Below, piece by piece: positions 3,001 to 64,000 of a stretch of 64,000 nt of DNA; position 1 is the first letter of the stretch; every line of letters starts with the position of its first letter. Under the pieces are notes generated by a model. The model worked only from the letters and a program-made list of their open reading frames with translations. It did not search any database and had not been told where the DNA came from. Position numbers and translations under genes: made by a program. This stretch comes from Loxodes magnus (lineage: Eukaryota > Ciliophora > Karyorelictea > Loxodida > Loxodidae): NCBI GenBank assembly GCA_946699065.1, contig CAMPDV010000123.1:671579-735578 (forward strand), in the 5' to 3' direction.

Positions 3001-3300
3001 GATACTCTTCTCAATTTTATTTCCTTACTTGTAATGCAAATATATCTTATACTAATACATAAATAACAGAGTATTTTTGTATGAGACTTAACTTAATTTA
3101 AATTTAACTAAATAAATTTGTGGTACCTTCAATTTTCAGAATATGTTCTTCCAATTGAAGGTATTATATTGTTTTTAAATGTTATTATATATCAAGTTTA
3201 TTGCTCTTCAGAACACTTAACTTAATTTGAAGTAAAGTCTAAAGTAGTTGTAATAAAAAGCTATATCTGCTTATTATTTATTCTTATATCATAATTAAAT
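1..3300. other. AT-rich stretch with no recognised gene
   Basis: No reading frame of useful length or recognisable motif was found here in the standard code or with TAA/TAG read as Gln. The sequence is mostly A/T with short homopolymer runs. The only local structure I would point to is the 11-bp perfect hairpin listed separately. No homology to the inverted-repeat arms further right was noticed, but a self dot-plot is needed to be sure. Confidence 0.6.
3124..3163. other. Perfect 11-bp hairpin
   Basis: TACCTTCAATT is followed 18 nt later by its exact reverse complement AATTGAAGGTA. The arms contain a G+C-containing core (ACCTTC/GAAGGT), which is unusual in this AT-rich stretch. Its role is unknown. 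It lies about 160 nt upstream of the zf-B remnant. Confidence 0.6.
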
Positions 3301-3324
3301 TATTTTATTCATTATAACTGTAAA

Positions 3325-3690
3325 ATTAAATAAGACACTTCAAAAAATATTTTTAGGGCATGACAACTTTACTCGGCTTATTTCCTTTCTCATCATTTTA
3401 GAGCAACTAACCAAAGAGAAAAAATTTATCTTCACTTCAGGAAAATACCTCATAAGCTGATCCTGTAGCATTCAATTTATACATAAGAATACCATCAAAG
3501 CTGATAATTAATTTTAGCTAAGAGTTTAGAAAAAGATAATTAATTCATTCGTACTGATAAAAAGCCGTATGCCAAAAATATGTGCCACACTTGCTATTAT
3601 CAAAATAAATAATTAAGATAAAGTAATCAAATGCGGCCATATGGATGGAGTAGTTTTTGCAAGAAACATATGCTAAATTTGCTATTAAAT
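3325..3690 (+). pseudogene. zf-B copy 1, decayed double zinc-site gene
   Basis: This is a degenerate relative of the intact zf-A genes. Read with TAA/TAG=Gln, pieces of the family can be followed in three frames: a TTLLG-like N-terminal block, then RTDKKPYAKNMCHTCYYQ (first CxxC site), then CGHMDGVVFARN with ICQICY (second CxH...CxxC site). The usual start codon is replaced by ATT, and at least two frameshifts separate the blocks, so no single product can be made. The first CxH pair is also lost, because the position before RTDKK reads I/H without the cysteine. About 180 nt of 3' flank, to roughly 3,860, matches the flank of the zf-B copy at 18.4 kb in the same orientation, so these two are close relatives. 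Function of the family is unknown. Confidence 0.7.
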
Positions 3691-4370
3691 AGTTCAATAA
3701 ATATATAAGAAAATAAAAATAAAGAGATTTGAGCTTATAGAATTATTTATTTTATAAATAAATATTCTTTAATTTCTTAAAAAGAGACCTTCATTTATAA
3801 TCTTCTTAACTAAAATCCCATTATTATACTTTTCCCTATTTTTACTATTTTTTAATGGATTCAAAGTTGTTAAATTAAAAAAATAATTGACTAAAAGTTT
3901 TCAAAATTAATAAGTTATATTAAGTTATTTATTAAAAATAATCATAAATATAAGAATAATTTTTAGTAGCTAAATTAAAACAAAGAGGCATAAAGCACTT
4001 TTGCTATATGATTTAAATTTATTGCGAAAATGGAATCTATTATTAATGGAAAGTACTTAGTGAAATAGATATTGTAGCTAAATAAAATTAAAATTATTAA
4101 ATAGTCTATCAGTAGCATCTAGATAAATTAAATTAAAATATACTTAAAAAATTAAGATTTTCCTTATCTTGATATGAAGAATATCTTTTTATTAAATTTA
4201 TTTTAATTTCTTTCTCGAGCTATAAAGGATTAAGGCAAAAATAATAAATGATAAAAAATAAAAATTTATCTATAAGCAAAAGATTAAAAAATAAAAGAAA
4301 TTAAATTAAAATTAAAGGACATATTTTAGAAATATATCACATAAATTAAAAATTCCAAGTTTCTAAAATA

Positions 4371-5334
4371 AAAAATTATAGCTAATAATTAAAAAATGGA
4401 AGGATTCAAAAAAGGTTTCTACACCACCTCCAAAAAGTTGGAGAGGTAACCTGAATCCAATCTTGGCCAGTCCTCTTTTTCTTAACCTTAACCTTCTTCT
4501 TAATCTTAACAACTTGGAATTCAATCAGAATATGACGAGCAGAAGAAATTTTAGAAAGCGACTCACGTAATAAATCCTACATCGTAGGAAAAGCCAAGAA
4601 AGCAGATGAAGTCTGCTCTTCACCAGGAGTTGTCAGAATTTAATCCTTCTGGCCAGATAAGCATGGAGTAGCTCATCAAAGTGGTGCTGAACCTCCAGGA
4701 GTGGTTAGGAAACTGAGAAAGGATAATGAGAAGTTTATGGAACAACTCAGCCTAGCGGAAGGAATATAATCCAGATTTATGTTCTAAGAAAGAGAACTAA
4801 GCGCTTTCTGAAACATATCCTAAGACCAGATAAACTAATCCTAAAATTAGCTTCAGAAACAAACTGATCTGAGTTACAGACTGGAAAAATTAGAAAAGAA
4901 GCTAGACGAACAAAGGGGAAATCCAATTTTGATTGAAGAGACCAACATGAAGACTAGGGTTAAACCACAAAAAGTAGTGAAGAATTGTTACTGCAATTCG
5001 ACAAAACACATGTGAAGACGCTGCATGAAATTCCAAAATTTCAAGATATAGTATTGGAATAAATAAAGAAGAAAACAAGCACAACAGAGGAAGAAAAAAC
5101 AAATGAAATAGAGACAAATCAGAGAGAGATGAAACCTAAATGAATTAGGTTTCATCTACAAGAGAAAATCTGATTAGAAATGAAGATAGAATCGGAAATG
5201 ACATGAAGAGGAAGAGAGGCCTTTAAAACTTTATTTTTAACATTGGAGCAACCTGGTGTCCAGCATGAAGAGATGAAAATCCTCGATAATTGCTAAACTT
5301 AATTTATCCTATTATTATTACAAAAATTATAGCT
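4371..5334 (+). mobile_element. ORF1-only retroelement with 13-bp target-site duplication
   Basis: The body (4384-5321) is flanked by perfect direct repeats AAAAATTATAGCT at 4371-4383 and 5322-5334. The matching place in the other large arm (about 56.22-56.25 kb) has one uninterrupted copy of the sequence, an empty site. The 3' end is a short ATT-rich tail (ATTATTATTA), as expected for target-primed reverse transcription. The element begins only 12 nt before the ORF1 start codon and carries no reverse transcriptase, so it resembles mammalian half-LINEs (HAL1). Homologues lie at 30.8, 33.9 and 56.9 kb. Confidence 0.8.
4396..5150 (+). pseudogene. ORF1 protein of the half-LINE (coiled coil plus zinc knuckle), frameshifted
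   Basis: With TAA/TAG=Gln the frame opens MEGFKKGFYTTSKKLERQ, followed by a Gln/Ser-rich stretch and an ELSEFNPSGQISMEQLI block. The start is shared with the homologue at 34.79 kb (MVEGLKKGFYTSS). A leucine/valine heptad segment follows (IKVVLNLQE...VRKLRKDNEK), a likely coiled coil. A 1-nt loss at about 4.69 kb, judged against the 57.2 kb copy, breaks the frame there. Further on, a retroviral-type CCHC knuckle is readable as CYCNSTKHM-[TGA]-RRC at 4986-5024, one residue short between the first two cysteines. The in-frame TGA at 5013-5015 falls where the 34.1 kb homologue has TGG (Trp). Such ORF1 proteins probably bind the element RNA. This copy is probably dead. Confidence 0.7.
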
Positions 5335-8300
5335 CATCAGAATAAAATTGCATATTAAAACATAATAAATAAATAAAATGATTATGAAATAGCAATAGAA
5401 TAAAAATAAATAATTTATTGTAGCTTTTTAATTAAAATAGATCTTGTTATAATTTATAAAAAATTAAAAATTAAACTATTCTATTTATTAAAATATTCAT
5501 AAAATGCTAGTTAAAAATTTAATTCATAAGAATATAATAAAAAATGTAAAATTTATTATTTATTTTATTGAATTTAAGGACTATTAACAAAAAATTTGAG
5601 AGTTTAATATCTCATATATTAGACAAATATGCTTTTTTGGTTTATTATTTAAATAAAAGAAAAAATAAAATAAAAGTTGAATAATTAGAAATAAAAATAC
5701 TAAAGGAAGTATTTAAAAATTAGAAATTTCTTAATTTAATTTCAGATAAAAATGTAAATTAAAAGGATCTTTAACATTAACTAAAATATAAGCTAAAAGA
5801 TTTCTTCTTTATCCAAAATCTGACTCTTAATTTGCTTTAACTTTATTTACAAATATTAGTTGCGAAATTTGCATAGCCAATTTTCTGAATATTTACTTTA
5901 TCATTGGAATAAAAAGAGCTATAGCTATACTTAGTAAATAATAATCTTTGTGAAATAATTTTAATATTCAAGTAAATTTTAGTAGGGTTGAGCATATAAA
6001 GCTAATAATAAGCATTAATGAGAAATTTATGAAATAGATTAAAAAATTCATTGTTAGAAACATCTCAATACATAACTCTTCAACTTAGTTAAAGAGGCGA
6101 AAGGAACATAACTTTAAAAATTATTAATTTTCTTCCTTTAATTTATAAAATGTTTGCGCTATTTAGATATATGCATTTAAACTATTGATTTAAGTTTTAA
6201 AATATAATGAAGGTAATTATTGGATAGAAGAATAAAACTATTAAGTTTAATAAAAGAGCATCTCTTATTATATTAAATTCATTTATATATTAATATTAAA
6301 AAAATAAATAAGGATTTATATTTTTTGAGAGAAAGGATTTAGAAAAACTTCTATGATAGTAGAGCAATAGAATTAAATAAAGAATCCAAAGTTTAAAAAT
6401 AAAAATTATTTTATAAGTTAATAATTCTTAATTAGATCTAATCATCTCAGCATATCTCATTTCAAGTAAGACATTTAGATTACAAATTTTTAGAAAAATA
6501 TAAAAGTTAAGAGAGTAGAAGAGCGCTTAATAGAAAAAACTTAAAATGTATTGAAAGAATTCTGAAATATGTGCTTACTTCATGGGCTTATAAAGCATAT
6601 TATTATTTTATTAAGTATATAAAGAAATTTAAATTGATTTAGTGAAAACAATTATTAAAAATAGATAACTTTAGTATTTCTTGTCAATTAATTTAAAAAG
6701 AAAAACTAAAATATTTCACAACTTTATAAACCAATATTGAGGAATTTGATTCCAATAATTAACAATATTTAGAATATCAAATTTATAATAAAAGCAACTA
6801 AGAGATATTATTCTTTTTTTCTTTAAAAATTAATCTTAATGAAGTAGATGTTGATTTAGATTATAACCAAAATATCAATGATTTAATTATTTTAATGAAA
6901 CATTAATTTGTTTAAATCTCAGTTGGATAATGGAATAGCCTTATTAATACTCTTATATTTAGAAATATTTAGAAATAAATAAATCATCTATATAGATATT
7001 TTAGTTTTTTTAATTAGATTCTAGATGAGAATGGTAGATTTAAGTATTGAATAAACCATTTATGAATACTTAAACTAAATTAGAAAAAAATAAGCATTGT
7101 TAGTGATAATTTATATTATTTATGCTAAGTATAACAAATAAAAATAGCAAATCCTCTAATAATTTCTTATAATTAAATTCATTATTTTCTTATTTTATCT
7201 TTATTACTCAAGTAATAAAACTTATTAAGATAAAATCTTCTAAATTTAAGTTGAATGACAAAGAAAAACTTGAGATAAAGGAAAATAATATTTTTAAAAA
7301 GGCAAATAATTACTAACTATGTAGAACTTAACTTAATAAACTATAAACATTTCTCAACTTTATATATTGTTAGTTATAATATTACATGAAACTGTAAACT
7401 TAGAATCTTTTATTTAGACCAAGTCAGAAGAATTGATTGCTAAGAGTAAATATCGAATAAAAATAACTTAAGCATAATTTATTTTTTGATGAAACTAAGA
7501 GATTTTACTAGAAGTAGCAGAAGTCTTTTGAATAAAATAATCAACTTATTTATTGGTTACATAAAGGATTATTTAAAAGGAATCAGAAGCTCTTTTAGCC
7601 AAATTTTTTATCAAATCTAAAAAACATATACAAGGTCTAATTTACACTAAGATTCTAAAATCTTAAAGAGAATAATTATAAAATATAGCTAAATTAGCAA
7701 TAATAATCAGTTAAATGGAAGCTTACTTTAATATATTCTTAACTAATTAATTATTTAATAACAGTAAGTAGAAGTGAAAAATACGCAAAATTAAATAAAG
7801 AAGCGTTTAATATACTATATATCTTAAATACAAATCATTATTTAAATTCAGATGCTTAATAGGAATTTATCTAACTTAACTTTATGAAGCAAAAGCTTAG
7901 ATAATTAATATGTGCTTATATTTATTAGCAACTTCTAGAAAATACTTTAATCAAATTATTCTGATTTAAGATAAAAATTTATTTACATGATCATATACAA
8001 CTTTTAGAAATGTGTAAGATAAATAACTTCGTCGCTTTCTGATTTATCATATAAAACTTTTTTAGAAATTAGCTAGATTTTCGTGAAATAATAACAAGTA
8101 GTTGGTAGTATATTCCAATTATTCTAATTTCTTTATAGATTGAAAATGAAAATTTGTTTAATATCCTTAATAAATGGAGCAAGCTTACCTATTAAGAAAA
8201 GCTTAAGTATTTAAATTTAATTAAAAGACAAATTATCAATAAAAAATAAAGGTTCAATCTATTTGTATAAGTTTAGTTAAGAACATGTTCATTAAATTAT

Positions 8301-17254: not shown

Positions 17255-17650
17255 CAATAAATCAATAAATCAATCAATTGGATTATAGAGCGCGTAGCGC
17301 TCTCATTGTTGTGCAACTCTTTAAATTAATTTTATTTAATGTCGAAAAATAAAATATAATAAGTCTCTATCCTTGTTTTCTCTTTCTGCAGTGCAAGCAT
17401 GCAATTTAACCTTCCAAAGCATAGGATGCAATATGCAATTACGGGTATATCTTTTCCCCGACCTATGATGAAGAAGGTTTTCTCCTGAAATTCAGAGTTC
17501 TCCACTTGTCAAATCTTCCTTCTAGAAGTTTCTTCCTATTAGTTTCTCTTTCTAATATTTATCCTCTGTCTGCGCTCATTTTCAGTTGACTTGCTAGGCC
17601 TCCAAGTAGCATCCTAAGGAAAGGGCTTTCCACCCTATTTGTTTAATAAT
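17255..17650 (-). mobile_element. SINE-like element with LINE 3' stem-loop (family a, divergent)
   Basis: On the minus strand the element ends in the stem-loop GAG...GAGCGC-TAC-GCGCTC followed by an (ATTG/ATTT)n tail. The reverse-complement region near 41.95 kb has an uninterrupted AAATTTAATAATTTC site, so the insertion is clean, with a target duplication of about 5 bp (TTTAA). Its body shares a core of roughly 35 nt with the 24.3 and 52.3 kb elements (around the GATGAAGA motif) but is otherwise different. No open frame was recognised. Confidence 0.7.
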
Positions 17651-19092: not shown

Positions 19093-19968
19093 TTATAAAA
19101 AAAAAGTTAAAAGTTAAAAAGCTTTGTTAAAGCCTTAGTAGTCAGCCATCTGACCTATTCTATCAGCTTGTCTCCATTAGTTTGTCTTGAATTCCTACTA
19201 GGTTTAGTTAGTCGGTGTAGCATTTCATTAGTGCACCATCCTTTAATATTCGGAATAGTTTTGATCTTTCACTTTGCGTTCCTAATTATTTATCCAAGGA
19301 TTAAGATTTGAATTAAAGAATTTTTTTCTATAAATTTAACCGCTTTATGTTGGATATATTCTAAATAGTTTTCTAAAAATATCTTATTTATTCTTTCTTT
19401 AAATTTCGCTTAGTTAGTAGCAGTATTTTCATTGGTGTTATTTATTGCACACGTAGCATTTTATTCTTCTATTAAACTATTATTCCTGTAACACTTATTT
19501 AATTTAAATTTACTACTTATTTTAAATAAACGTTTACTGTTTATTTTAATTTGAGGCTTCATTTTCTATTTCCATAGGATCTGATTAATTCTGTTAAAAC
19601 GAAAATGGCGTTACCTGAATTTATTATTGAATTTAAAGAATTCTTTGCTCCAGTTTAATTTCTATTTCTTATGATTATTAATATTGTTTCTCAAGTAAAG
19701 TCGTTATTAGTTTTTCTAATTTTTCTACTTTATCAGTGAGGTATCTATTTTTAAACATAAATTCTTTTAATGACTTAGATAATATTTCTATTTGATTTTG
19801 TGTCGGAAGTTTTTTTAATTCTGGATTTCCAAATGGATAATGTTCGTCATATCAATCATATTTCTCACTTTCACTCATTGTAATTATTTCGTTTTTTTAT
19901 TTTTTAGAGAATTTTCCTGTTTAAATGTTTTGTTCAGAGTTCTGTTATTTCTTAGAAGCCATTTTATA
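19093..19968 (-). mobile_element. ORF1-only retroelement, family 2, copy 1
   Basis: An 866-bp body between short TTATA direct repeats. The mirrored locus at about 39.57-39.6 kb is an empty site (GTGAATTTATAATTAG) with one TTATA. A second copy lies at 37.63-38.50 kb in the same orientation and is highly similar. On the minus strand the element starts at the MASKK start codon and ends in an A/T-rich tail. It contains only the ORF1-like gene and no reverse transcriptase. Confidence 0.8.
19099..19962 (-). CDS. ORF1-like protein with coiled coil and CCHC zinc knuckle
   Basis: With TAA/TAG=Gln and TGA=Trp the frame is open over the whole element (288 codons) without a break. A first ATG gives MASKKQQNSEQNIQ. 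A second at 19878 (MSESEKYD-[TGA]-YDEHYPFGNPE) is the better start, because it is the one still in frame in the copy at 38.4 kb. A predicted coiled coil follows (YLTDKVEKLEKLITTLLEKQ), then a long Gln-rich tract. The zinc knuckle CYVCNKQHQ-[TGA]-KYC is a CX2CX3HX4C variant. The C-terminus is basic, with NPWINNQ and QWRQADR containing normal TGG. The three in-frame TGA codons (19852-54, 19429-31, 19225-27) are all plausible Trp. Probably an RNA-binding ORF1 protein. No TGA stop lies inside the element; translation may end at a TAA near the tail. Confidence 0.7.
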
Positions 19969-24314: not shown

Positions 24315-24668
24315 ATAATAAATAAATAAATAAATTTGATTATAGAGCGCGTAGCACTCTCATTGGTGCGCAGCTCTTTAAAAATGTTTCATACTGACAA
24401 GAATGTTTGTTACTGATAGAATTATCAGATACTGATAAACCTTGTTCAATACTGGTATAATTATTCAGTACTGATAAAAATGTTCAATACTGATATAATT
24501 TTAGAATACTCGTAATCTTTTCTACTTGTTGGAGGTCCAAGGATATGGCAGGATTGTGTCTCATTGCATCACCAAAGCAGAGGAAGACATAAAGTCGATT
24601 ATGGGTACTTCCCCAACCTCTGATGAAGATGAACTTGTTGTCACCTTCGAACAACTATTTAATAATAT
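24315..24668 (-). mobile_element. SINE-like element with LINE 3' stem-loop (family b)
   Basis: Minus-strand element about 350 bp long, closely related to the one at 52.3 kb. Its 3' end is the stem-loop (GAGC...GCTC, GCG...CGC, CAC...GTG) and an (ATTT)n tail. Upstream are seven or so imperfect ATCAGTA/ACCAGTA repeats spaced about 15-25 nt. The possible target duplication is CTATTAAATAAT/CTATTTAATAAT with one mismatch. No protein frame was recognised. Confidence 0.7.
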
Positions 24669-32029: not shown

Positions 32030-32800
32030 ATATTCTTAAAAATTCAAGTTCTAGCTTCCTCTGGGCTTTCAACCGGGTGTTAACTACCATTTTTTAAGTG
32101 GATGAATATCAAATTATATGTGGTATGTTACCATTTATAATTATCTTCAGTTCAGATAAAATTTTCTATTTATAAATTCAATTTTCAGTTATTCAAAGTT
32201 TATTCATGACCTTTTATGTTATTTTCTCTTTTCTTATTTTTAGTTATTTTTAGATTCAACTCTGACATAAAATATGGCAAGCCTAATGACAATATCAGCA
32301 TTTTTTTTCCAGGATTTGCTTCTAACACACTTTTTTTTCAATTTCTATATTCTTTTTTGTAAATTTATAGTCTTCTTTTCTTTTTCAATCAATTTAGTAT
32401 AGTCTTTTCTTTAACCATATTTTGCTATTGACAACTATCGATTGTGATTGCTCATAAAGTTAATATTCTTTTAGTAAGTTATTTAGATTAACTGATGACG
32501 TAATATTAATAACTCACTATTTTGTTATCAATATTTTTTTTATTTCTCTGATTTTTCCGCCTTAGTTGTAAATTATTTCTTAAAATTTTTAGATTAATTT
32601 TTATATTTAGTCTAGTTATTTTAGAGTTTTTGGTCAATTTCTTTTAAAAGTTTTCCTATCTCTGCAGTTCCTATAATAACTTTATCTTCTGATGAAAAAC
32701 TTGATTCCTCTTTTTCTATTACTTTTTTCTTCATTTCATTCGCCACTTTTATCCTTAATTTTCTAAATTAAATCTTCGAGAGACAAAGAGATTACTCTAT
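32030..32800 (-). pseudogene. ORF1-like protein, family 3, degenerate copy
   Basis: Read with TAA/TAG=Gln and TGA=Trp it resembles the next copy to the right. An N-terminal part (KVIEKEESSFSSEDKVII) and a Lys-rich coiled-coil region come first, then, after a frame change, KKC-[TGA]-YCHQAC (CWYC in the neighbour, where the codon is TGG). The tail contains NKL-[TGA]-ITEN-[TGA]-IYKQK, aligning with NKL-[TGA]-ITEF-[TGA]-VYKQK at 33.0 kb. The zinc-knuckle histidine is present but the last cysteine is out of register. The element ends are not clear. Likely a dead, older copy next to a younger one. Confidence 0.55.
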
Positions 32801-32867: not shown

Positions 32868-33486
32868 AAAATGATATTATTATTATTATTATTTAACTAA
32901 ATGTAAAATAAATATTTGCGTACCCTGGGTTTTAAACCAGGTATCAGCGGATAATTTTTTTTTTAGTGGTTGTATTCCATGACCTTTTTTATAAGTGGGT
33001 GTTACCACAAACGAATCTCTTAGTTTCTTATGAGTAATTTTTATTTATAAACTCAGAATTCAGTAATTCAAAGCTTATTTAAGTTTCTTCAGGTTCTTTG
33101 CTCTTCATTGGGCTTGAGTAGTCTTCATTCTTTGCAATGTCTTAGTAGGTGATATTAATATTGACAGTACCAACAATTTTTATATTACTTCTCAACTTTC
33201 TTCTTTGGATAAATCTTTCTTTCTAGCATCTCAATTCTTTTGCTTAGGCTTGAATTAATTTGTTCAATTTAATTTTAGAGTAATTTATTATTTTGAATTC
33301 CAGGATTAACTTATTCAGTAAGGCCGACCATTACTTTTCCCTCTAAAGACGAGCTAGAATCTCGATTCTGTCTTTGTTTTTTTAGTTCCTCAGTAGTCGC
33401 TTGCTTTCTTTCTTTCTTGCTTTCTTTCTTAATTCTTTGAAAGACGGATGTTCTACTCCATTTTTTATTTAAAATGATATTATTAT
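32868..33486 (-). mobile_element. ORF1-only retroelement, family 3, with 16-bp target-site duplication
   Basis: Perfect direct repeats AAAATGATATTATTAT lie at 32868-32883 and 33471-33486 and flank a 587-bp body. The 3' end on the minus strand is an (AAT)n tail. The body carries one short ORF1-like gene. It is the smallest of the ORF1-only elements in the window and sits immediately beside a related degenerate copy. Confidence 0.75.
32915..33460 (-). CDS. Short ORF1-like protein with CCHC zinc knuckle
   Basis: A 182-codon frame when TAA/TAG=Gln and TGA=Trp. Basic N-terminus (KKESKKERKQATTEELKKQ), acidic/serine patch (SSSSLEGK), and a coiled-coil segment (LLQNQIEQINSSLSKRIEML). The perfect CX2CX4HX4C knuckle CWYCQYQYHLLRHC is followed by a C-terminal domain with four TGA codons in Trp-like contexts (KE-W-RLL, RT-W-RN, NKL-W-ITEF, W-VYKQK). 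The first ATG (33461) is one base out of frame with this reading, so either the pyrimidine-rich repeat at 33.40-33.44 kb has slipped or a different start is used. Probably RNA-binding; whether it is still functional is unclear. Confidence 0.6.
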
Positions 33487-33852: not shown

Positions 33853-34816
33853 TTACAGGATTAATTAATTAATTAAATTAAATTAAAGTGTTAAAGAAGG
33901 ATCGTCTACTTAAGAGCTTCCTATTTCCCTATCCAACCAATAGGAACTTGATCTCTAGGTGGTCTTCTCCTCCCGTCACTGTCAAGTTTTCGGGATGGTT
34001 GTCTCTTCATATAGCTTGCTTTCTTCTTATAAATTTCTCCATTCCTGGTTGGGTAAAATTAGGTTAGATCATTCCATATTTTCTATTAAATCTTCTTTCA
34101 CTTCCAGCATCGTCTCCATAGGTGGTCTGTTCTCCTGCAGATGTAACATTTTTTCCTAAAATATTTCTCTTTATTTTGTTCAATTGGCTTATTATTCTCT
34201 TATTCGATCTCCATTGGGATAGATTGTATAGCCTATTATTTTACACTTGTCTCTAATTTTTCCAATTTGATATGAATATTTTCATTCGATTCGTATAATT
34301 GTTCCAGCTGCCTATCGAATTCGTCAATTCTGATATTCATTGCAGCCTGGTTTAAGTTTCTAGGAGCATGGGTTTCCTAATCTTCTAAATGCTCTTGCTG
34401 TTCTTAAGCTAGTTCTTCAATCTGTTTTTCCAGATCTTTATTTTTTCCTATTAATGCTAAGATAAGCTTAGCCATTTCCTCCTTCGTCATTCCTAAGATT
34501 TGTTCTTTATTCAGATCTCCGAGGTCCATGTAGGGGTTGAATGTCCTAATCTAGGCCTGAAAGTTACTAATCTTTTGCTTCTTGGGAAGGTCCTCAGTCG
34601 ATATTGTTGCATGCTAGTGTTTCTAGGGTTGTCTGGGGGTGTTGTTTAGACTTGCTCCTATATGGTTTAAGAAGAAGGTTAGGTTTCGGAAGATGACGTG
34701 TGGTGCTTAGAAATTTAGGTTTCCTGATTCCTCTCTTCCTTTTAAGCTTAGAAAGAGCTGGTATAGAAGCCCTTTTTTAAACCTTCTACCATATTTTTTT
34801 TTTACAGGATTAATTA
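33853..34816 (-). mobile_element. ORF1-only retroelement, family 1, with 15-bp target-site duplication
   Basis: TTACAGGATTAATTA is present at 33853-33867 and again at 34802-34816, flanking a 934-bp body. On the minus strand the element starts about 9 nt before the ORF1 ATG and ends in (TTTAA)n/(TTAA)n. Length and structure match the 4.4 kb copy (938 bp), so 935 bp is probably the full-length unit. It contains no reverse transcriptase. Confidence 0.8.
33868..34792 (-). pseudogene. ORF1 protein, family 1, best-preserved copy (one frameshift)
   Basis: MVEGLKKGFYTSSFQAQKEE opens the frame. One base change of frame somewhere in 34.60-34.69 kb (near a CCCCC run) is needed to join it to the rest. 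The rest reads IRTFNPYMDLGDLNKEQILG, a coiled coil (IGKNKDLEKQIEELAQEQQE) and FDRQLEQLYESNENIHIKLE, then PMEIEQENNKP. The canonical CCHC knuckle CYICRRTDHLWRRC is followed by WK-[TGA]-KK and a basic tail. The Trp at knuckle His+2 is TGG here and TGA in the 5.0 and 57.35 kb copies. In the homologous family it probably coats the element RNA. No TGA stop occurs before the tail. The frameshift could be real or a sequencing error. Confidence 0.7.
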
Positions 34817-37625: not shown

Positions 37626-38505
37626 AATATTTATAAAAAAGTTAAAGTTAAAAAGCTTTGTTATAGCCTTAGTAGTCAGCCATCTGACCTATTCTATCAG
37701 CTTGTCTCCATTAGTTTGTTTTGAATTCCTAGTAGACTTAGTTAGGCGGTGTAGTACTTCATTAGTGCACCATTCTTTAATATTCTGAATAGTTTTATCT
37801 TGCACATAGCGCTCTTAATTATTTATCCAAGGATTAAGATTTGAATTAAAGAATTTTTTTCTATAAATTTTTCCGCTTTATGTTGGATATATTCTAAATA
37901 GTTTTCTAAAAATATCTTATTTATTCTTTCTTTAAATTTCGCTTAGTTAGTAGCAGTATTTTCATTGGTGTTATTTATTGCAGACGTAGCATTTTATTCT
38001 TCTATTAAACTATTATTCCTGTAACACTTATTTAATTTAAATTTACTACTTATTTTAAATAAACGTTTACTGTTTATTTTAATTTGAGGCTTCATTTTCT
38101 ATTTCCATAGGATCTGATTAATTCTGTTAAAACGAAAATGGCGTTACCTGAATTTATTATTAAATTTAAAGAATTCTTTGCTCCAGTTTGTTTTCTATTT
38201 CTTATGATTATTAATATTGTTTCTCAAGTAAATACGTTATTAGTTTTTCTAATTTTTCTACTTTATCAGTGAGGTATCTATTTTTAAACATAAACTCTTT
38301 TAATGACTTAGATAATATTTCTATTTGAGTTTGTGTCGGAAGTTTTTTTAGTTCTGGATTTCCAAGTGGATAATGTTCGTCATATCAATCATATTTCTCA
38401 CTTTCACTCATTGTAATTATTTCGCTTTTTTATTTTTATAGAATTTTCTTGTTTAAATATTTTGTTCAAAGTTCTGTTGTTTCTTAGAAGCCATTTTAAT
38501 ATTTA
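37626..38505 (-). mobile_element. ORF1-only retroelement, family 2, copy 2
   Basis: Direct repeats AATATTTA at 37626-37633 and 38498-38505 flank an 864-bp body that is highly similar to the 19.1-19.97 kb element. The minus-strand 5' end lies 3 nt before the first ATG, and the 3' end is an A/T tail. The mirrored region near 21.0-21.2 kb lacks the insert. Confidence 0.8.
37635..38411 (-). CDS. ORF1-like protein, family 2, copy 2
   Basis: The same protein as at 19.1-19.9 kb. The upstream MASKK start (38494) is out of frame here because one base has been lost from a T-run at about 38.44 kb. MSESEKYD-[TGA]-YDEHYPLGNPE at 38411 opens the long frame and is taken as the start. Downstream are the coiled coil, the Gln-rich tract and the CYVCNKQHQ-[TGA]-KYC knuckle, with the TGA codons at the same places as in copy 1. 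Amino-acid differences from copy 1 are few. The shared in-frame TGA codons are consistent with sense decoding, but two close copies could also share an old mutation. Likely an RNA-binding ORF1 protein. Confidence 0.65.
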
Positions 38506-40295: not shown

Positions 40296-40344
40296 TTTTA
40301 CAATAAATTTAATAATTTAAATATAATATAAATAAATAATAAAT

Positions 40345-40775
40345 AAAAATCATTATAGAGCGCATTGCACCTCATTGGCACGCAGCTCTTTCAATATTAA
40401 TATTTAATATTAAGAAAAATGTTCTCATGTTTCTTGTCAAAATTCTAGAAGTCCAATGAGTCATGTCAGCTTCTCCAAATGGGGAATCTTCTTATTTAAA
40501 GATTATTCTCGAATCTTGAATCAAATGCTCCAGTCTTCTTGGATAAGGTCCAAATAAGAATTAGTTATTAAGTCATTAAATAGAAGACCCGTCAGTCAAG
40601 CTTTCATACTGCTAGAGAGAACCCTCGGGATAAGTTTGGCATGTCTCAACTGAGCTTATTCACCCTTCCCCGTGGTGACATCTAGTGCAAAATTACTCAC
40701 AATGCAGTATACACTGCACCAAATTACCAACTAGTGTTTCTGACGCGGCCGACATCCATTTTATATAATAAAAAA
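40345..40775 (-). mobile_element. SINE-like element with LINE 3' stem-loop (family c)
   Basis: About 400 bp on the minus strand, closely related to the element at 57.7 kb. The 5' part begins TATATAAAATGGATGTCGGC. The 3' end has the stem-loop and an (ATTT)n-like tail. The mirrored place at about 18.32-18.34 kb is uninterrupted (TAGACTTATTTATTTTTC). The target duplication is A-rich (about AAATAAAAA). G+C content is much higher than the surroundings. No protein frame was recognised, and no perfect Pol III A/B boxes. Confidence 0.7.
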
Positions 40776-52300: not shown

Positions 52301-53500
52301 ATTAAATAAATAATAAATAAATAAATAAATTTGATTATAGAGCGCGTAGCACTCTCGTTGGTGCGCAGTTCTTTAAAAAAAAATGTTTCATACTGACAAG
52401 AATGTTTGTTACTGATAAAATTATCAGATACTGGTAGCCCTTGTTCAATACTGGTATAATTATTCAGTACTGATAAAAATGTTCAATACTGATATAATTT
52501 TAGAATACTCGTAATCTTTAATACTTGCTGGAGGTCCAAGGACATGGCAGGATTTTGTCTCATTGCCTCACCAAAGCAGAGGACGACATGTGTCAATTAT
52601 GGGTACTTAAATTCCCCACCTCTGATGAAGTTCGCAATATTATTTCATTTTCGTTCCAGAATTAAAAATAAATTAAGCCAAGCCAGTGTCGGTGGTCTAA
52701 GAATCTTATGTCTCGAGGTCAAACCAAAGCAGAGGAAGACATAAAGTCGATTATGGGTACTTAACTTCCCAACCTCTGATGAAGATGACCTTGTTGTTCA
52801 CTTTCGAACAACTATGGGGGTTTTAAAAAATATATATGATTGATAAAGTTATGAAATTTTTAATTTTTCTTTTTTAAATTAATTGAAAAGAATTACTAAA
52901 GTTATCTATTTTTAATAATTTTTTGTCACTAATTCAATTTATACTTCTTTATATACTTAATAAAATACTAATAGGCTTTATAAACTCATGTAGTAAGCAC
53001 ACATTTTCAGAATTCTTTAACAAATTTTAAGTGCTTTCTATTAAGTGCTTTTCTACTTTCTTAGCTTTTATATTTCTAATAATTTTGAATTAAATTGGAA
53101 TTTAAATGTTTTATTTGGAATGAGATATGCTGAGATGATTAGATCTATTTAAGAATGATTAACTTATAAATAATTTTAATTTTTAAAATTAGATTCTTTA
53201 TTTAATTCTATTGCTCTACTATCATAGAATTTGTTCTAAATCTATTCTATCAAATAAAAAATATAAATATTTATTTATTTTTTAATATTAAGATATAAAT
53301 GAAATTAATATAATAAGAGGTTCTCTTTTATTAAACTTAATAGTTTTATTTTTATCCAATAATTACCTTCTTTATACTTTTAAGACTTAAATCAATTATT
53401 TTAAAGCATATGTCCAAATAACGCTTGCTAAGCATATATAAATTAACAGGAAGAAAACCAATAATTTTTAAAGTTATGTACCTTTCACTTTTCTAATCAA
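49210..53500. repeat. Inner inverted repeat, right arm of the right-hand copy
   Basis: Matches 6.0-9.8 kb in reverse complement and 41.9-45.69 kb in reverse complement (for example 49.3-49.9 against 44.9-45.6 kb). It is interrupted by the SINE at 52.3-52.8 kb. The outer limit is set by where the eye alignment to 6.0 kb ends. Confidence 0.7.
52306..52830 (-). mobile_element. SINE-like element with LINE 3' stem-loop (family b, internally duplicated)
   Basis: The mirrored place at about 6.73 kb is an empty site, so this is a clean insertion of about 510 bp with a short target duplication of roughly ATTGAT. It shares with the 24.3 kb element the stem-loop end, the ATCAGTA repeats and the GGTCCAAGGA...GGGTACTT segment. 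That segment (about 80 nt, from ACCAAAGCAGAGGA to CCTCTGATGAAG) occurs twice, at about 52.57-52.63 and 52.72-52.79 kb, with 90 nt of extra sequence between. No protein frame was recognised. Confidence 0.7.
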
Positions 53501-54117
53501 AATTAAAGAGTTATGTATTGAAGTGTTTCTAGCAACTAATTTTAATCCTCTTTATAAATTTCTCATTAATGCTTATTATTAGCTTTATATGCTCAACCCT
53601 ACTAAAATTTACTTAAATATTAAAATTATTTGACAAAGATTCTTATTTGCTAAGTATAGCTATAGCTATTTTTATTCTTAATACTAAAGTAAATATTCAG
53701 AAAATAGGCAATGTAAATTTCGCAAATAATATTTGAAAATAAAGTTAAAATAAATTAAGAATAAGTGTTTTGGATAAAGAAGAAAGCTTTTAGCTTATAT
53801 TCTATGCTAATGCTAAAGATTCTTAACTCAATTTTATCTGAAATTAAATTAAGAAAAATACAATTTTTAAATACTTCCTTTAATATTTTTATTTCCAGTT
53901 ATTCAATTTTTATTTTGTTTTTTCTATTATCTAAATGCTAAACCAAGAAGGTATATTTGTCAAATATATGAGATTTTAAATTCTCAAATATTTTGTTTAA
54001 TAGTCCTTAAGTTCTATAATAATCAATAGTAACTTTTAAATTTTTTATTATATTCATATTAATTAAATTTTTAGCTAGCATTTTACGAATATTTTTAGTT
54101 AAATAAATTTGATTATA

Positions 54118-54148
54118 GAGCGCGTAGCACCTCGTTGGTGCGCAGCTC
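54118..54148 (-). promoter_or_regulatory. LINE 3' stem-loop, likely RT recognition site
   Basis: On the minus strand GAGC, GCG and CACC pair with GGTG, CGC and GCTC across an AACGA loop, with a one-base and a three-base bulge. The same structure, with a few compensating or tolerated changes, ends the SINE-like elements at 17.3, 24.3, 40.4, 52.3 and 57.7 kb. A shared LINE/SINE 3' end is a well-known basis for SINE mobilisation; that role here is inferred. Confidence 0.65.
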
Positions 54149-54161
54149 TTTAATAAATGTT

Positions 54162-56090
54162 TCAATACATGTCTATTTCTTCAAGTAAGCCTTCAGGTAA
54201 TAAAAATTCTTCTCTTATTAGTTCCATATCTTCATCATTTTCTTCTTCATTATCTCTTGTTCTTCTGTCTTCTATCTATCTACGTTTTATTGATTCTTTG
54301 TTACAAGCGTCCATTATTTTTTACATACTTTGCTAATTTTCGTTTCTAATTCTTTTTTTCTTAATCAAGCTTTTATAAAATCATAAAAATTATCCTTTTC
54401 CTGCTCTATAATATTTTCCTATTTCTTTTTTTCATTCAATTTTCTTTTCTAAGTATCCTTTTTTTCTTTTTTCTAATATGTTTTTGATATAATCTTTTAT
54501 TATCAAGTCAGTTTTAGCTCTTTTTTACTCTTCTTAGGTTCTAATGAATTTTTCGAATTTTGCCGTACCTCATATTATATCAAATAGTTCGATTCCTTGT
54601 CTCTCTACTCCTATTGTTCTTAACTTTCTAATACATATTTATCTACTTTCTTTGTATTCTGAGCATTTTTCTATGATATGCCTTTCATTTTCTCTTGCAT
54701 CATTACAGAAAGGGCATTTACTTGTCGCAACTAGGTGTCTTTCTTTTAAACAATTCTGGCTCCCATTACATCTCGTTCTTATTCTAAATATGTAGCATAT
54801 TTCTTCTTTTCTATTTTTATTGTATCTTAGGTAGTTGGGTGGTCCTACTACATATTCATCAAATCATGCTTTTCTATATTGTAGAGTTGTTATCATTTAC
54901 TCCATTCTTTCTCTATCTTCTATGTATACTCTATGTTCTCAAATTGCACGATTAATGTTTTTCTTCCCTTTTTGATTATTATTACCATCATCTATAAATA
55001 TATTTTTGTCTTCAATTTTTAATTCTAATTTTATTGTCGTGCAGTATTGTTCAAAAATAAAGTTCTCTTCTTTACTTAGGTCGAATATTAATCCATCTAC
55101 TGTTTTTCCTTAGTTACCTATTAGTCTGCCTCTTAATCTCAGCGTTTTCTGCCATAGGTAATGTTTAAATTTCATAAACTGTAACTCGTATTCTAGCATC
55201 TCATTTTACACTTAGAAAGGGGCATCTATGATTGCTCGTAAAGATCTTCTCTATATTATTTCTAATTGTTCCATCACTTATTTTCCTACAAATTATTCAC
55301 AATATGGGATAACTTCTGTCCCATAGCTGAATACTGAGCTTACGAACTTTTTTATCATTATTCCTGCATTATATGGTGTTAATCCCTTATTCATTGTTAT
55401 TTTACCCAGTATTCATGTTTACATCTTTTATGCTGCTTCTAGTCTGTTCTCCATGTGTTTTTCAAAGCTGATGGTCTCTTCTATTATATGCCCTAGGTAC
55501 TAAAAGGACGTTACTCTTTCGATTCTTAAATTTCCCACCTCAATAGTATTGCCTATATTTTCTCAGTTTCTATTTTCTGCTGCTTTTCATATCATTCATT
55601 TTGTTTTATCTGCAATTTCCAGTTTGTATTTTTCTGCCCATGAGGTTAAATTTTTGATTATTTCCTCTAATTATTCTCATTCACTTATTAAGGCTAGGTC
55701 ATCTGCATATGAAAAACAACCTGCATATATTTCTTTTGTTCATCCCTCTTCGTTTTTAAAGTCTATCGTAATTCCTAGCTTTTAATCTTCCAAGCTATGG
55801 AGAAGTCTTGCTATTATAAAGTTAGATAGTCTTGTCGACGTTATGCATCCCTGTTTTAGTCTTTTATTTGTCGCGAATGATTTTGCTATTTATTCATTGA
55901 TTTTAAGTTTAATTTCTTCTTCACAGTAGAAGTTTGCTAGGAGTTTAATTATCTATTCCGGTACTTTTAGATCGTTTAGGATTTATCATATATCTTTTCT
56001 TTGCACCGAGTCGTACGCTTTTTTAATATCAACAAATATTACGAAAACATCTTTTTTGTTCCATATTGAGTTAATAAAATCTTTTGATTT
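54162..56090 (-). CDS. Reverse transcriptase of a LINE, 5' partial, with many in-frame TGA
   Basis: A 643-codon frame with no indel, read with TAA/TAG=Gln; it holds 12 internal TGA and 3 TGG codons and ends at TGA 54164-54162. Visible RT landmarks: VFVIFVDIKKAYDSV (first catalytic Asp), RKDI-[TGA]-QILNDLKVP (LINEs usually have Trp here), RLKQGCITSTRLSNFI (QG..TS block), and FSYADDLALISE, the YADD catalytic site at about 55.70 kb. These are followed by SWAEKYKLEIADKTK and FQYLGHIIEE (thumb YLG). Near the C-terminus the CPFCNDARENERHIIEKC motif (CX2CX8HX4C) is typical of LINE C-termini. The protein would copy element RNA at a nicked target. The N-terminal part (endonuclease, if any) is missing, so the clade is not assigned. 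Only sense decoding of TGA keeps it open. Confidence 0.85.
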
Positions 56091-56935: not shown

Positions 56936-57670
56936 TACCTGAATCCAATCTTGGATAGTCTTCTTTCCCTTAACCCTAACCTTTTTCTTATCCTAATAAC
57001 CTGGAGAAGAACAGAAACAAGTTCAGAAGACAACATATATAATAACTCCAACCTCATAAGAGAAGCCAAGGAAGCAGATGAAGTCTGCTCTTCACTAGGA
57101 GGTTTCATAGTTTAATCCTTCTAGCCAAATGAGTATGGAATAGCTCATCAAAGTGGTACTGAACCTCCAGGAAGAGGTCAGGAAGCTGAAAAAGGAAAAT
57201 TACAAACTAATGGAGAATCTGAACAAGCAAGAGGAAATCGAATCAAGGGATAAGAAATAAGACAAGATGGAAATCGAAGAAATTAAAGTTGACAAGCCTT
57301 TATACGAGCGATAAATAAAATCCTGCTACTACTGTGGCTCAAGAGAATACTTGTGAAAGAAGTGTATGAAATTCCTAAATTTCAAACAGAGTTACTGGAA
57401 AAAGCAAAGATAACAATAGGAAAAAAGGAAGAGGTAGCAACAGCTTAAAGTAAGAAGGAATAGAGAACAGTTATGGATAAACGCTACTGAGAATATATGC
57501 AAGAAAAAATGCAATTAGTAATGGAAGAGAAACTGAAGATTTCAAGAATAAGCAAGGCAGGAAAGTGGATGGAGATAGAGATCAAACATTTAATTTTAGC
57601 CTCCGGAGCAATCTGGAGGTAGTCTAGAAATAGGTTGAAATACCTACAAGAAGGTCAAACATTTTATTCA
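56936..57670 (+). pseudogene. ORF1 protein, family 1, 5'-truncated and frameshifted
   Basis: Begins inside the N-terminal region compared with the 4.4 kb copy (homology starts at PESNLG). With TAA/TAG=Gln the main frame reads QEKPRKQMKSALHQEVSQFN and a coiled coil, LIKVVLNLQEEVRKLKKEN. It continues with MEIEEIKVDKPLYERQIKS and the CCHC-like knuckle CYYCGSREYL-[TGA]-KKC, then MKFLNF and a basic Gln/Lys/Arg-rich tail (WKKQRQQQEKRKR). The knuckle histidine is Tyr here. The TGA (57354-57356) aligns with TGG in the 34.1 kb copy. One frameshift lies upstream, at about 56.98-57.0 kb. It ends beside a SINE whose A/T tail abuts it, so the 3' boundary is not resolved. Confidence 0.65.
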
Positions 57671-57674
57671 TAAT

Positions 57675-58100
57675 AAATAAATAAAATGATTGTAGAGCGC
57701 GTAGCACCTCATTGGCGCGCAGCTCTTTCAATATTAATATTTAATAGTAAAAAATGTTCTCATGTTTCTTGTTAAATTCTAGAGATCCGATGAGTCATGT
57801 CAGCTTCTCCAAATGGGGAATCTTCTTATTAAAAATTATTCTAAAATCTTGAGTCAAATGCTTCAGTCTTCTTGAATAAGATCCAAATAAGAGATAGTTA
57901 TTAAGTCGGTAATTAGAAGGCCTGTTAATCAAACTTTCATACAGCTAGAGAGAACCCTCGGGTAAGTTAAGTACGTCTCAACAGAGCTTATTCACCCTTC
58001 CCCGTGGTGGTATCTAGTGCGAGATTACTCGCAATGCAGTATACACTGCACCAGATTACCTACTAGTTTGGCTGACGCGGCCGACATCCATTTTATATAA
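57675..58100 (-). mobile_element. SINE-like element with LINE 3' stem-loop (family c)
   Basis: Close relative of the 40.4 kb element over about 400 bp. It has the same 5' start (TATATAAAATGGATGTCGGC), the same interior (CACGGGGAAGGGTGAATAAG) and the same 3' stem-loop. Its (ATTT)n-like tail lies at about 57.675-57.69 kb, next to the ORF1-like insert. The two copies differ by scattered substitutions and small indels. Confidence 0.7.
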
Positions 58101-58998: not shown

Positions 58999-59640
58999 TC
59001 AACTGTAAATGTCTTCATCTGAATCAATTTCAAACTGAGATAATTTTTCTTTCTCTTCAATAAGCTCATAGAATTGTTCTTCCATCTTCTTGTAATTTTT
59101 CTCCAGCTTCTTTAAAGAAATTCTAAGGTCATTGTTGACCTTTAAAAGGTATTTATTGTGTTACTATTAATTACCAAGATCCTGTTTGATTAGTGTCACG
59201 GTTGAATCATCTAATATCAACTTATTTCTGTAAATACCTCAAGAGTAGTTACAAAATAGTCTCCTCGATGTTCCAAATTATTTACGGTGCTGATCAAGCA
59301 CTCTTCTTACCTTCAGACATTACCTCCAAAAATGTCCAGCCTTTCGACAACAATAGCAACGTTTTATTAAGGGCATGAATTTAAATTTTTATTCTGTTTA
59401 AATTTTTAAAATTTCCATTTTTTCTGATTAAAGTTAGTTTTTTTTTTATAGGTAATCGAATTTATTCTTTAATTTCTATTAATTTGCTTCTATGTTTCTT
59501 TCTAATAGTTTAAATTAGGAAGTTAAGGCTTCAATTTAAAACTAAACTTTCCTTACCAAGTCTTGATCTTCCTTTTTTCGATCTTACAAAAGAAGCCGTG
59601 ATTCAAGTTTTCAGACTTTGTATCTATATTTCGAAAATCA
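58999..59640 (-). CDS. Coiled-coil protein with canonical CCHC zinc knuckle
   Basis: A 213-residue frame plus TGA stop (TAA/TAG=Gln) with three internal TGA codons, two of them in the first dozen codons. The beginning is uncertain: the frame is open further upstream without an ATG, and the first in-frame ATG is at 59418. A long coiled coil comes first (VQFQIEALTSQFKLLERNIE, then QQKLKNKFDYLQKKNQLQSE). The knuckle CYCCRKAGHFWRQC is a perfect CX2CX4HX4C with Trp (TGG) at His+2, like the retroelement ORF1 proteins. A second coiled coil follows (LRISLKKLEKNYKKMEEQFY) and an acidic end (QFEIDSDEDIYS). A TGA in NYS-[TGA]-GIYR is Trp-like. It may be an ORF1 relative or a domesticated one. It lies 0.1 kb from the 102-bp tandem array and has a hairpin right after its stop. 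Confidence 0.65.
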
Positions 59641-59751: not shown

Positions 59752-62700
59752 TAGTTTTTTTATCTACAAATATTAACCTACTTTTTTTCATACTTTGTTG
59801 ACTCACTCTGATATTAGACCTTCGTATTCTCACTTCAAAACACTTCAAAAAATATACTTTTTTATATAAATATATTAACCTACTTTTTTTCATACTTTGT
59901 TGACTCACTCTGATATTAAAATTTCGTATTCTCACTTCAAAACACTTCAAAAAATATACTTTTTTATCTACAAATATAAACCTACTTTTTTTCATACTTT
60001 GTTGACTCACTCTGATATTAAAATTTCGTATTCTCACTTCAAAACACTTCAAAAAATATACTTTTTTATCTACAAATATTAACCTACTTTTTTTCATACT
60101 TTGTTGACTCACTCTGATATTAGACCTTCGTATTCTTACTTCAAAACACTTCAAAAAATATACTTTTTTATCTACAAATATTAACCTACTTTTTTTCATA
60201 CTTTGTTGACTCACTCTGATATTAGACCTTCGTATTCTCACTTCAAAACACTTCAAAAAATATACTTTTTTTATCTACAAATATTAACCTACTTTTTTTC
60301 ATACTTTGTTGACTCACTCTGATATTAGACCTTCGTATTCTCACTTCAAAACACTTCAAAAAATATACTTTTTTATATAAATATATTAACCTACTTTTTT
60401 TCATACTTTGTTGACTCACTCTGATATTAAAATTTCGTATTCTCACTTCAAAACACTTCAAAAAATATACTTTTTTATCTACAAATATTAACCTACTTTT
60501 TTTCATACTTTGTTGACTCACTCTGATATTAGACCTTCGTATTCTTACTTCAAAACACTTCAAAAAATATACTTTTTTATCTACAAATATTAACCTACTT
60601 TTTTTCATACTTTGTTGACTCACTCTGATATTAGACCTTCGTATTCTCACTTCAAAACACTTCAAAAAATATACTTTTTTTATCTACAAATATTAACCTA
60701 CTTTTTTTCATACTTTGTTGACTCACTCTGATATTAGACCTTCGTATTCTCACTTCAAAACACTTCAAAAAATATACTTTTTTATCTACAAATATTAACC
60801 TACTTTATCTCATACTTTGTTGACTCACTCTGATATTAGACCTTCGTATTCTTACTTCAAAACACTTCAAAAAATATACTTTTTTATCTACAAATATTAA
60901 CCTACTTTATCTCATACTTTGTTGACTCACTCTGATATTAGACCTTCGTATTCTCACTTCAAAACACTTCAAAAAATATACTTTTTTATCTACAAATATA
61001 TTAACCTACTTTTTTTCATACTTTGTTGACTCACTCTGATATTAAAATTTCGTATTCTCACTTCAAAACAATTCAAAAAATATACTTTTTTTATCTACAA
61101 ATATTAACCTACTTTTTTTCATACTTTGTTGACTCACTCTGATATTAAAATTTCGTATTCTCACTTCAAAACACTTCAAAAAATATACTTTTTTATCTAC
61201 AAATATAAACCTACTTTTTTTCATATTTTGTTGACTCACTCTGATATTAGACCTTCGTATTCTCACTTCAAAACACTTCAAAAAATATACTTTTTTTATC
61301 TACAAATATTAACCTACTTTATCTCATACTTTGTTGACTCACTCTGATATTAAAATTTCGTATTCTCACTTCAAAACACTTCAAAAAATATACTTTTTTT
61401 ATCTACAAATATTAATCTACTTTTTTTCATACTTTGTTGACTCACTCTGATATTAAAATTTCGTATTCTCACTTCAAAACACTTCAAAAAATATACTTTT
61501 TTATCTACAAATATTAACCTACTTTTTTTCATACTTTGTTGACTCACTCTGATATTAGACCTTCGTATTCTCACTTCAAAACACTTCAAAAAATATACTT
61601 TTTTATCTACAAATATTAACCTACTTTATCTCATACTTTGTTGACTCACTCTGATATTAGACCTTCGTATTCTCACTTCAAAACACTTCAAAAAATATAC
61701 TTTTTTATCTACAAATATTAACCTACTTTATCTCATACTTTGTTGACTCACTCTGATATTAGACCTTCGTATTCTCACTTCAAAACACTTCAAAAAATAT
61801 ATTTTTTATCTACAAATATTAACCTACTTTTTTTCATACTTTGTTGACTCACTCTGATATTAAAATTTCGTATTCTCACTTCAAAACACTTCAAAAAATA
61901 TACTTTTTTTATCTACAAATATTAACCTACTTTATCTCATACTTTGTTGACTCACTCTGATATTAAAATTTCGTATTCTCACTTCAAAACACTTCAAAAA
62001 ATATACTTTTTTATCTACAAATATTAACCTACTTTATCTCATACTTTGTTGACTCACTCTGATATTAAAATTTCGTATTCTCACTTCAAAACACTTCAAA
62101 AAATATACTTTTTTATATAAATATATTAACCTACTTTTTTTCATACTTTGTTGACTCACTCTGATATTAAAATTTCGTATTCTCACTTCAAAACACTTCA
62201 AAAAATATACTTTTTTTATCTACAAATATTAACCTACTTTATCTCATACTTTGTTGACTCACTCTGATATTAAAATTTCGTATTCTCACTTCAAAACACT
62301 TCAAAAAATATACTTTTTTTATCTACAAATATTAACCTACTTTATCTCATACTTTGTTGACTCACTCTGATATTAAAATTTCGTATTCTCACTTCAAAAC
62401 ACTTCAAAAAATATACTTTTTTATCTACAAATATTAACCTACTTTTTTTCATACTTTGTTGACTCACTCTGATATTAAAATTTCGTATTCTCACTTCAAA
62501 ACACTTCAAAAAATATACTTTTTTATCTACAAATATTAACCTACTTTATCTCATACTTTGTTGACTCACTCTGATATTAAAATTTCGTATTCTCACTTCA
62601 AAACACTTCAAAAAATATACTTTTTTATCTACAAATATAAACTACTTTATCTCATACTTTGTTGACTCACTCTGATATTAAAATTTCGTATTCTCACTTC

Positions 62701-64000
62701 AAAACACTTCAAAAAATATACTTTTTTATCTACAAATATTAACCTACTTTTTTTCATACTTTGTTGACTCACTCTGATATTAGACCTTCGTATTCTCACT
62801 TCAAAACACTTCAAAAAATATATTTTTTATCTACAAATATTAACCTACTTTTTTTCATACTTTGTTGACTCACTCTGATATTAAAATTTCGTATTCTCAC
62901 TTCAAAACACTTCAAAAAATATACTTTTTTTATCTACAAATATTAACCTACTTTATCTCATACTTTGTTGACTCACTCTGATATTAAAATTTCGTATTCT
63001 CACTTCAAAACACTTCAAAAAATATACTTTTTTTATCTACAAATATTAACCTACTTTATCTCATACTTTGTTGACTCACTCTGATATTAGACCTTCGTAT
63101 TCTCACTTCAAAACACTTCAAAAAATATACTTTTTTATCTACAAATATTAATCTACTTTTTTTCATACTTTGTTGACTCACTCTGATATTAGACCTTCGT
63201 ATTCTCACTTCAAAACACTTCAAAAAATATACTTTTTTATCTACAAATATTAACCTACTTTATCTCATACTTTGTTGACTCACTCTGATATTAAAATTTC
63301 GTATTCTCACTTCAAAACACTTCAAAAAATATACTTTTTTATCTACAAATATTAACCTACTTTTTTTCATACTTTGTTGACTCACTCTGATATTAGACTT
63401 CGTATTCTCACTTCAAAACACTTCAAAAAATATACTTTTTTATCTACAAATATTAACCTACTTTTTTTCATACTTTGTTGACTCACTCTGATATTAGACC
63501 TTCGTATTCTCACTTCAAAACACTTCAAAAAATATACTTTTTTATCTACAAATATTAACCTACTTTTTTTCATACTTTGTTGACTCACTCTGATATTAGA
63601 CCTTCGTATTCTTACTTCAAAACACTTCAAAAAATATACTTTTTTATCTACAAATATTAACCTACTTTTTTTCATACTTTGTTGACTCACTCTGATATTA
63701 GACCTTCGTATTCTCACTTCAAAACACTTCAAAAAATATACTTTTTTATATAAATATATTAACCTACTTTTTTTCATACTTTGTTGACTCACTCTGATAT
63801 TAAAATTTCGTATTCTCACTTCAAAACACTTCAAAAAATATACTTTTTTATCTACAAATATTAACCTACTTTTTTTCATATTTTGTTGACTCACTCTGAT
63901 ATTAGACCTTCGTATTCTCACTTCAAAACACTTCAAAAAATATACTTTTTTTATCTACAAATATTAACCTACTTTTTTTCATACTTTGTTGACTCACTCT
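59752..64000. repeat. 102-bp tandem array, at least 41 units, open to the right
   Basis: Units of 102 bp (34 codons) repeat head to tail from about 59.75 kb to the window end. Period is visible from TTGACTCACTCTGATATTA recurring at 59798, 59900, 60002 and 60104. Units come in two main types, with TTAGACCTTCG or TTAAAATTTCG, and with further switches (TTTTTTTCAT or TTATCTCAT; TCTACAAAT or TATAAATAT). Some units have an extra T or other 1-nt change. On the minus strand one frame reads KCFEVRIRRSNIRVSQQ then SMKKSRLIFVDKKVYFL per unit, but length-variant units break it, so the long minus-strand frames are fragments of a repeat rather than one gene. Confidence 0.95.

Follow-up and report, generated by a model that had tools for sequence, protein, structure and literature searches.

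In-frame TGA codons of a LINE reverse transcriptase in Loxodes magnus are very probably read as tryptophan under karyorelict genetic code 27

Karyorelict ciliates are described as using genetic code 27, in which TGA is translated as tryptophan unless it lies near the poly-A tail, and this code is stated for Loxodes magnus by the authors of its 706-Mbp macronuclear assembly (accessible part of PMC11441545), while for Parduczia UGA has been described in both sense and stop use (accessible part of PMC4967479). The reading of TGA as Trp together with TAA and TAG as Gln has thus already been published for L. magnus and the karyorelicts, and the observation itself is not new. Two further nuclear codes come close. 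Code 28 of Condylostoma magnum likewise gives a sense meaning to all three standard stops and differs in that TAA and TAG also terminate there, whereas the code of Blastocrithidia shares UGA as Trp and a reassigned UAR but belongs to another lineage, reads UAR as Glu and also stops at UAA (accessible part of PMC12153298). As for mobile elements, LINEs are reported to be abundant in L. magnus, the families rnd-1_family-27 and -19 having consensus sequences of 5-6 kbp and ~3,000 copies each (accessible part of PMC11441545).

We analysed a stretch of 64,000 nucleotides of L. magnus contig CAMPDV010000123.1 (contig bases 671579-735578, GC ~20%; hereafter the window) together with the whole assembly (705,730,643 bases, 7,843 contigs). 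With a probability of roughly 97%, TAA and TAG encode Gln in this genome, TGA encodes Trp inside genes and stops at their ends, as in code 27, and the reverse transcriptase (RT) frame of the window belongs to a 5'-truncated LINE that is translated in this way. No difference was found from code 27 as described for Loxodes and Parduczia, with TAA/TAG as Gln, internal TGA as Trp and TGA as stop. The raw sequence confirms, independently of annotation, that all three standard stops can have a sense meaning in one genome.

The RT frame runs on the minus strand from 56090 to 54162 (the preliminary description had given no strand) and is open only when TAA and TAG are taken as Gln and 12 internal TGA as sense. 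Its 643 codons comprise these 12, one terminal TGA and three TGG, along with 17 TAA, 5 TAG, 7 CAA and 4 CAG as Gln-type codons. When TAA/TAG are translated as Gln and TGA as Trp, the frame matches RVT_1 over residues 12-203 (E = 6e-21) and retains the YADD box (FSYADDLA). Homology to most full copies in the assembly begins at RT base 22, ~56069, which leaves the first seven codons of the frame outside the element; the window copy is 5'-truncated near this point, consisting of 1.9-2.0 kb out of a ~5.5-kb element, and the common 3' hairpin is present. The 3' portion of ORF2 (54162..56069, minus strand, with the 12 internal TGA under code 27) carries the RT with its KAYDSV and YADD motifs as well as a C-terminal CPFC...H...C motif, and it ends in a TGA (54162..54164), the probable stop, beyond which the conserved 3' end extends for another ~62 nt. 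The same terminal TGA and 3' region recur in the 11 other LINE copies read there. A stem-loop (AGAGC...GCTCT; 54117..54149, minus strand; -17.5 kcal/mol, z -3.9) and an AT-rich end (54100..54116, minus strand), where other copies bear ATTT tails of variable length, complete the element. Judged by the RT domain with its YADD box, the 5' truncation and the shared 3' end, the element can be classed from its sequence as a non-LTR retrotransposon.

The preliminary description had counted 643 codons without an indel and 12 internal TGA. This count holds, and we saw no frame-breaking indel in the window copy. It differs in length from all 13 close copies with a full RT at one place, an A-run near RT base 1769, and is there 3 bases shorter than 7 of them, 2 shorter than 5 and 1 shorter than one. 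A bare count of TGA nevertheless proves little, because, by our own estimate, chance would yield TGA at ~2% of codons given the base composition of the window, and homologous positions are therefore needed. As to the depletion of coding TGA in the last ~20 codons ahead of the stop that belongs to code 27, the final internal TGA is codon 570 of 643, and about one TGA would be expected by chance anyway in the remaining gap. A coding-potential scan of the window reported each stretch in all its frames and was used only for listing candidate regions. A protein homology search yielded two distant outside LINE RTs at E <= 0.001, the region aligned to them covering seven of the TGA. The suggestion that TGA occurs where Trp is natural is borne out at codon 35, which faces Trp in both outside RTs, but not at the other six aligned TGA, which face Trp in neither.

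Comparison within the assembly was more informative. All 150 RVT_1 domains scored, out of 3,403 candidates, carry 3-9 TGA, and along the whole RT stretch 13 of the 20 loci fetched share 96-98% DNA identity with the window copy. In length (5.5 kb), RT and putative AP-type endonuclease motifs, the 3403 RT candidates and the occurrence of truncated copies, the elements are like rnd-1_family-27 and -19, to which they are likened by description only. Fourteen close copies, including a partial one, give 175 cells at the TGA positions of the window RT; 168 of these are TGA, and the other seven hold two TAA and a single ATG, TGT, CGA, GAA and TTA. In copy L026 the same positions are 12 TGA and 1 TGG (n=13); in copy L022, which represents family B at 71% DNA identity, 8 TGA, 1 TGG and 3 others (n=12); in L021, 7 TGA, 1 TGG and 4 others (n=12); and in the family C copies L023 and L024, TGA at 4 of 7 each. 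Conversely, a TGG of the window is read as TGA at 1 of 3 positions in L026, 2 of 3 in both L022 and L021, and 1 of 1 in both L024 and L023. Columns with a local identity below 40% were removed from this comparison, whereby L027 dropped out with no aligned columns. Summed over L021-L024, 25 of 38 cells opposite a TGA keep it or have TGG, a rate inside the range of other residues (0.32-0.87).

The dN/dS of the window RT, taken between families A and B, was 0.10 against L022 and 0.13 against L021; it was 0.14 against L023, not computable against L024 owing to saturation, and 0.38-0.47 for L017, L020 and L026. Only columns with local similarity entered these pairs, so that dN is biased downwards. 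Since the copies are so similar and a frame full of TGA is under constraint, the LINE family must have been translated through its TGAs. These data also bear on the possibility that TGA is only a stop here and that dead LINE copies have acquired it by nonsense mutation, from TGG or other codons. Individual LINE copies do carry indels, some ORF1 copies of the window are decayed, and a very AT-rich genome favours G to A; against this, the same TGAs are common to 14 copies and partly to families at 65-71% DNA identity, dN/dS is ~0.1 across the TGA-rich frame, and TGA occupies an invariant Trp position in host kinases, so that we regard such decay as extremely improbable. The preliminary description had likewise argued against G-to-A decay in dead elements, and its judgement stands, with TGA persisting between diverged families at dN/dS ~0.1. 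That TGA would specify another residue (Cys, selenocysteine or Arg) is scarcely credible either: near-cognate readthrough can elsewhere insert some Cys or Arg (accessible part of PMC4967479) and nothing here speaks for it, whereas TGA and TGG swap between LINE families and between kinases, and the single TGT and single CGA noted above are all that stands opposite a window TGA in the 175 cells of the 14 close copies. The 12 internal TGA of the window RT would accordingly be Trp codons of a LINE family translated under code 27.

Further Trp positions can be followed in the ORF1 zinc knuckles of the window. Two CCHC knuckles on the minus strand, at 34107..34148 and 59317..59358, have TGG as the codon of the second residue after His. 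The same codon is TGA in a decayed knuckle at 4986..5024 (plus strand), which is one residue short between its first two Cys, and in two minus-strand knuckles at 19420..19458 and 37953..37991. The last two lie in a common repeat and are not independent, because their repeats are 93% identical in DNA. In a further knuckle at 57324..57365 (plus strand), Tyr replaces His and the following Trp position is again TGA. All six codons were thus reported correctly before, except that the residue described as His in the 57.3-kb knuckle is Tyr. Because the Cys or His spacing is no longer intact in some of the knuckles, we consider part of the window ORF1 copies decayed. Two ORF1-like knuckles on the minus strand contain the sequence CWYC, spelled with TGG at 33134..33175 and with TGA at 32259..32300, and the double TGA in the NKL-x-ITE stretch of two copies was found at 33079 and 32204; both observations agree with what had been described.

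We then asked what host genes say about TGA. A search with Pfam PF00069 across the assembly scored 136 kinase domains of 5,592 candidates, and 91 of the 136 contain at least one internal TGA (157 TGA overall). In kinase subdomain IX the motif D-x-W-S-x-G contains an invariant Trp, and this site gave the strongest test. The residue is encoded by TGG in 20 and by TGA in 11 of the 31 kinases read out of the 136, with no other codon; the 31 stretches were made up of 20 picked for containing TGA and 11 that complete the 20 best-scoring domains, and they include close paralogues, so that the counts are not all independent. Four of the 31 rows were missed by the regular expression and were read by eye from the translations. 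Among the 20 best-scoring domains, unselected for TGA, 16 TGG and 4 TGA were found at this position. These 11 TGA and 20 TGG support the earlier proposal that TGA means Trp on top of TAA/TAG as Gln. Host genes with TGA at stops alone, named beforehand as the outcome that would speak against the proposal, were looked for and not seen among the kinases.

The kinases likewise make it most improbable that TGA has a sense meaning only in mobile elements, or through programmed readthrough, with host TGA being only a stop. Such an explanation could point to the share of TGA among Trp codons, which is 80-100% in the LINE copies counted, 11 of 37 in kinases and none in the main actin, but it is at odds with TGA inside 91 of 136 kinase domains and at the invariant Trp in 11 of 31 read. 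We therefore return to a code shared by both: at Trp positions, TGA and TGG stand in for each other in host kinases as well as in several LINE families, and the selfish elements of this genome obey the same code as their host.

Actin genes supplied the gene ends. The assembly gave 96 actin matches, and the 20 loci read among them all end in KCF-TGA, with more in-frame TGA downstream; these loci are near-identical array copies of one gene family and amount to effectively few observations. No internal TGA occurs in the main actin array genes examined, in which Trp is encoded by TGG. An actin paralogue contains four TGA: two stand where the main actin has TGG for Trp, and the others are opposite Gln and Gly, one each. 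On contigs C266, C711, C707, C437 and others, dozens of actin genes with near-equal scores lack internal TGA, unlike several single paralogues. As actin genes end in TGA and kinases use TGA for Trp, TGA is therefore both Trp and stop.

TAA and TAG were seen only inside genes among the host genes read, typically as 7 TAG and 2-3 TAA per actin array gene and as 0-14 per kinase domain in the 136 domains, and at none of the 20 actin gene ends, which represent one gene family only. This bears on a Condylostoma-type code 28, in which TAA and TAG could also stop. The two codes had both been left standing in the preliminary description, and TAA, TAG and TGA do all serve as sense here, as code 28 would have it. 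In contrast, the gene ends read, all 20 of them at actin loci, use TGA throughout, though near-identical array copies count as few observations, and code 27 is what the L. magnus authors state (accessible part of PMC11441545). Code 28 is very unlikely on these grounds, and code 27 fits, with actin ending in TGA in 20 of 20 cases and TAA/TAG only internal in the genes read.

The decoding tRNA, for which a tRNA-Trp with UCA anticodon had been proposed as a check, was not seen by an arm-pattern search. A pattern for the anticodon arm, modelled on animal tRNA-Trp and allowing either CCA or UCA, gave no match at <=3 mismatches. Of 42,786 candidates from a search for the tRNA family, 63 were scored, which gave no anticodons, and neither Rfam nor ARAGORN (bacterial settings) found anything in the window. 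On contigs C78, C103 and C158, tRNA genes occur in series with spacings of 1,753, 527 and 1,752 bases.

LINEs and kinases differ in how often they use TGA for Trp. Twelve of 15 internal Trp codons of the window RT are TGA, and the share is 0.80-1.0 in copies L017, L022, L024 and L026 (aligned stretches, with the terminal TGA counted where reached), compared with 11 of 37 (26 TGG) in the 20 unselected kinase stretches; for 12:3 versus 11:26, Fisher's test gives p = 0.0016. The full copies also allow the relation of ORF1 to ORF2 to be read. Upstream of the RT they contain IKIGTANVRG, MAIQEI and GDWNAH, and in L011 SDHRPG, which we take to be putative AP-type endonuclease motifs. The ORF1 knuckle and the endonuclease start lie in one frame, 915 bases apart in family A (L017) and 807 in family B (L022), and column phase is constant from ORF1 to RT across five family A copies together. 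Of the differences between L026 and the family A copies, third codon positions of this phase take up 50 of 92 within ORF1 (columns 600-1200), 102 of 202 within ORF2 (columns 2100-3900) and 43 of 99 further on (columns 3900-5400). For the linker (columns 1200-2100) the figure is 36 of 100, with no excess and hence no codon constraint shown. The family C copies L023 and L024 differ from each other by indels, and the frame relation was read in families A and B. L020 had suggested a programmed -1 frameshift where the endonuclease begins; this was discarded, as L020 and L011 are simply one G short relative to the other copies aligned there.

A single LINE polyprotein from ORF1 to ORF2 is thus plausible, with support from two families, though not established. 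We tentatively speculate that, under a code whose only stop is also read as Trp, ORF1 could not end before ORF2, which might have led to LINEs encoding a single polyprotein (ORF1 knuckle, endonuclease and RT), and that TGA-rich Trp usage might confine them to such hosts; this we hold to be possible, yet doubtful. Neither the TGA-rich Trp usage of the LINEs nor the single frame of ORF1 and ORF2 was found described in the literature searched, including the accessible part of PMC11441545. The effect of a dual-meaning stop on mobile elements with several ORFs is a useful question raised here, and the assembly offers many LINE copies for it.

Repeats abound around the LINE. Positions 1-59700 of the window hold 52 repeat pairs at E <= 1e-8, of up to 3.2 kb, 67-99% identical and in both orientations. 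Five further stretches on the minus strand resemble the 3' hairpin region of the LINE (17260-17325, 24327-24391, 40340-40409, 52322-52390 and 57678-57746), one of them degenerate, as if several repeats had one 3' end in common. A Tetrahymena germline origin, at first suggested by the 20% GC and the LINEs, was discarded: no telomere-repeat match was found in the window, and chromosome-breakage-like matches were at chance level (2 versus 0.77 expected). On contigs C5131 and C20, LINE RT domains occur in series with a spacing of 2,532 or 2,504 bases, a piece of the LINE seemingly forming a tandem array. The end of the window (59756-64000) is a tandem satellite with a 102-base unit in ~41 copies and a higher-order period of 307 bases.
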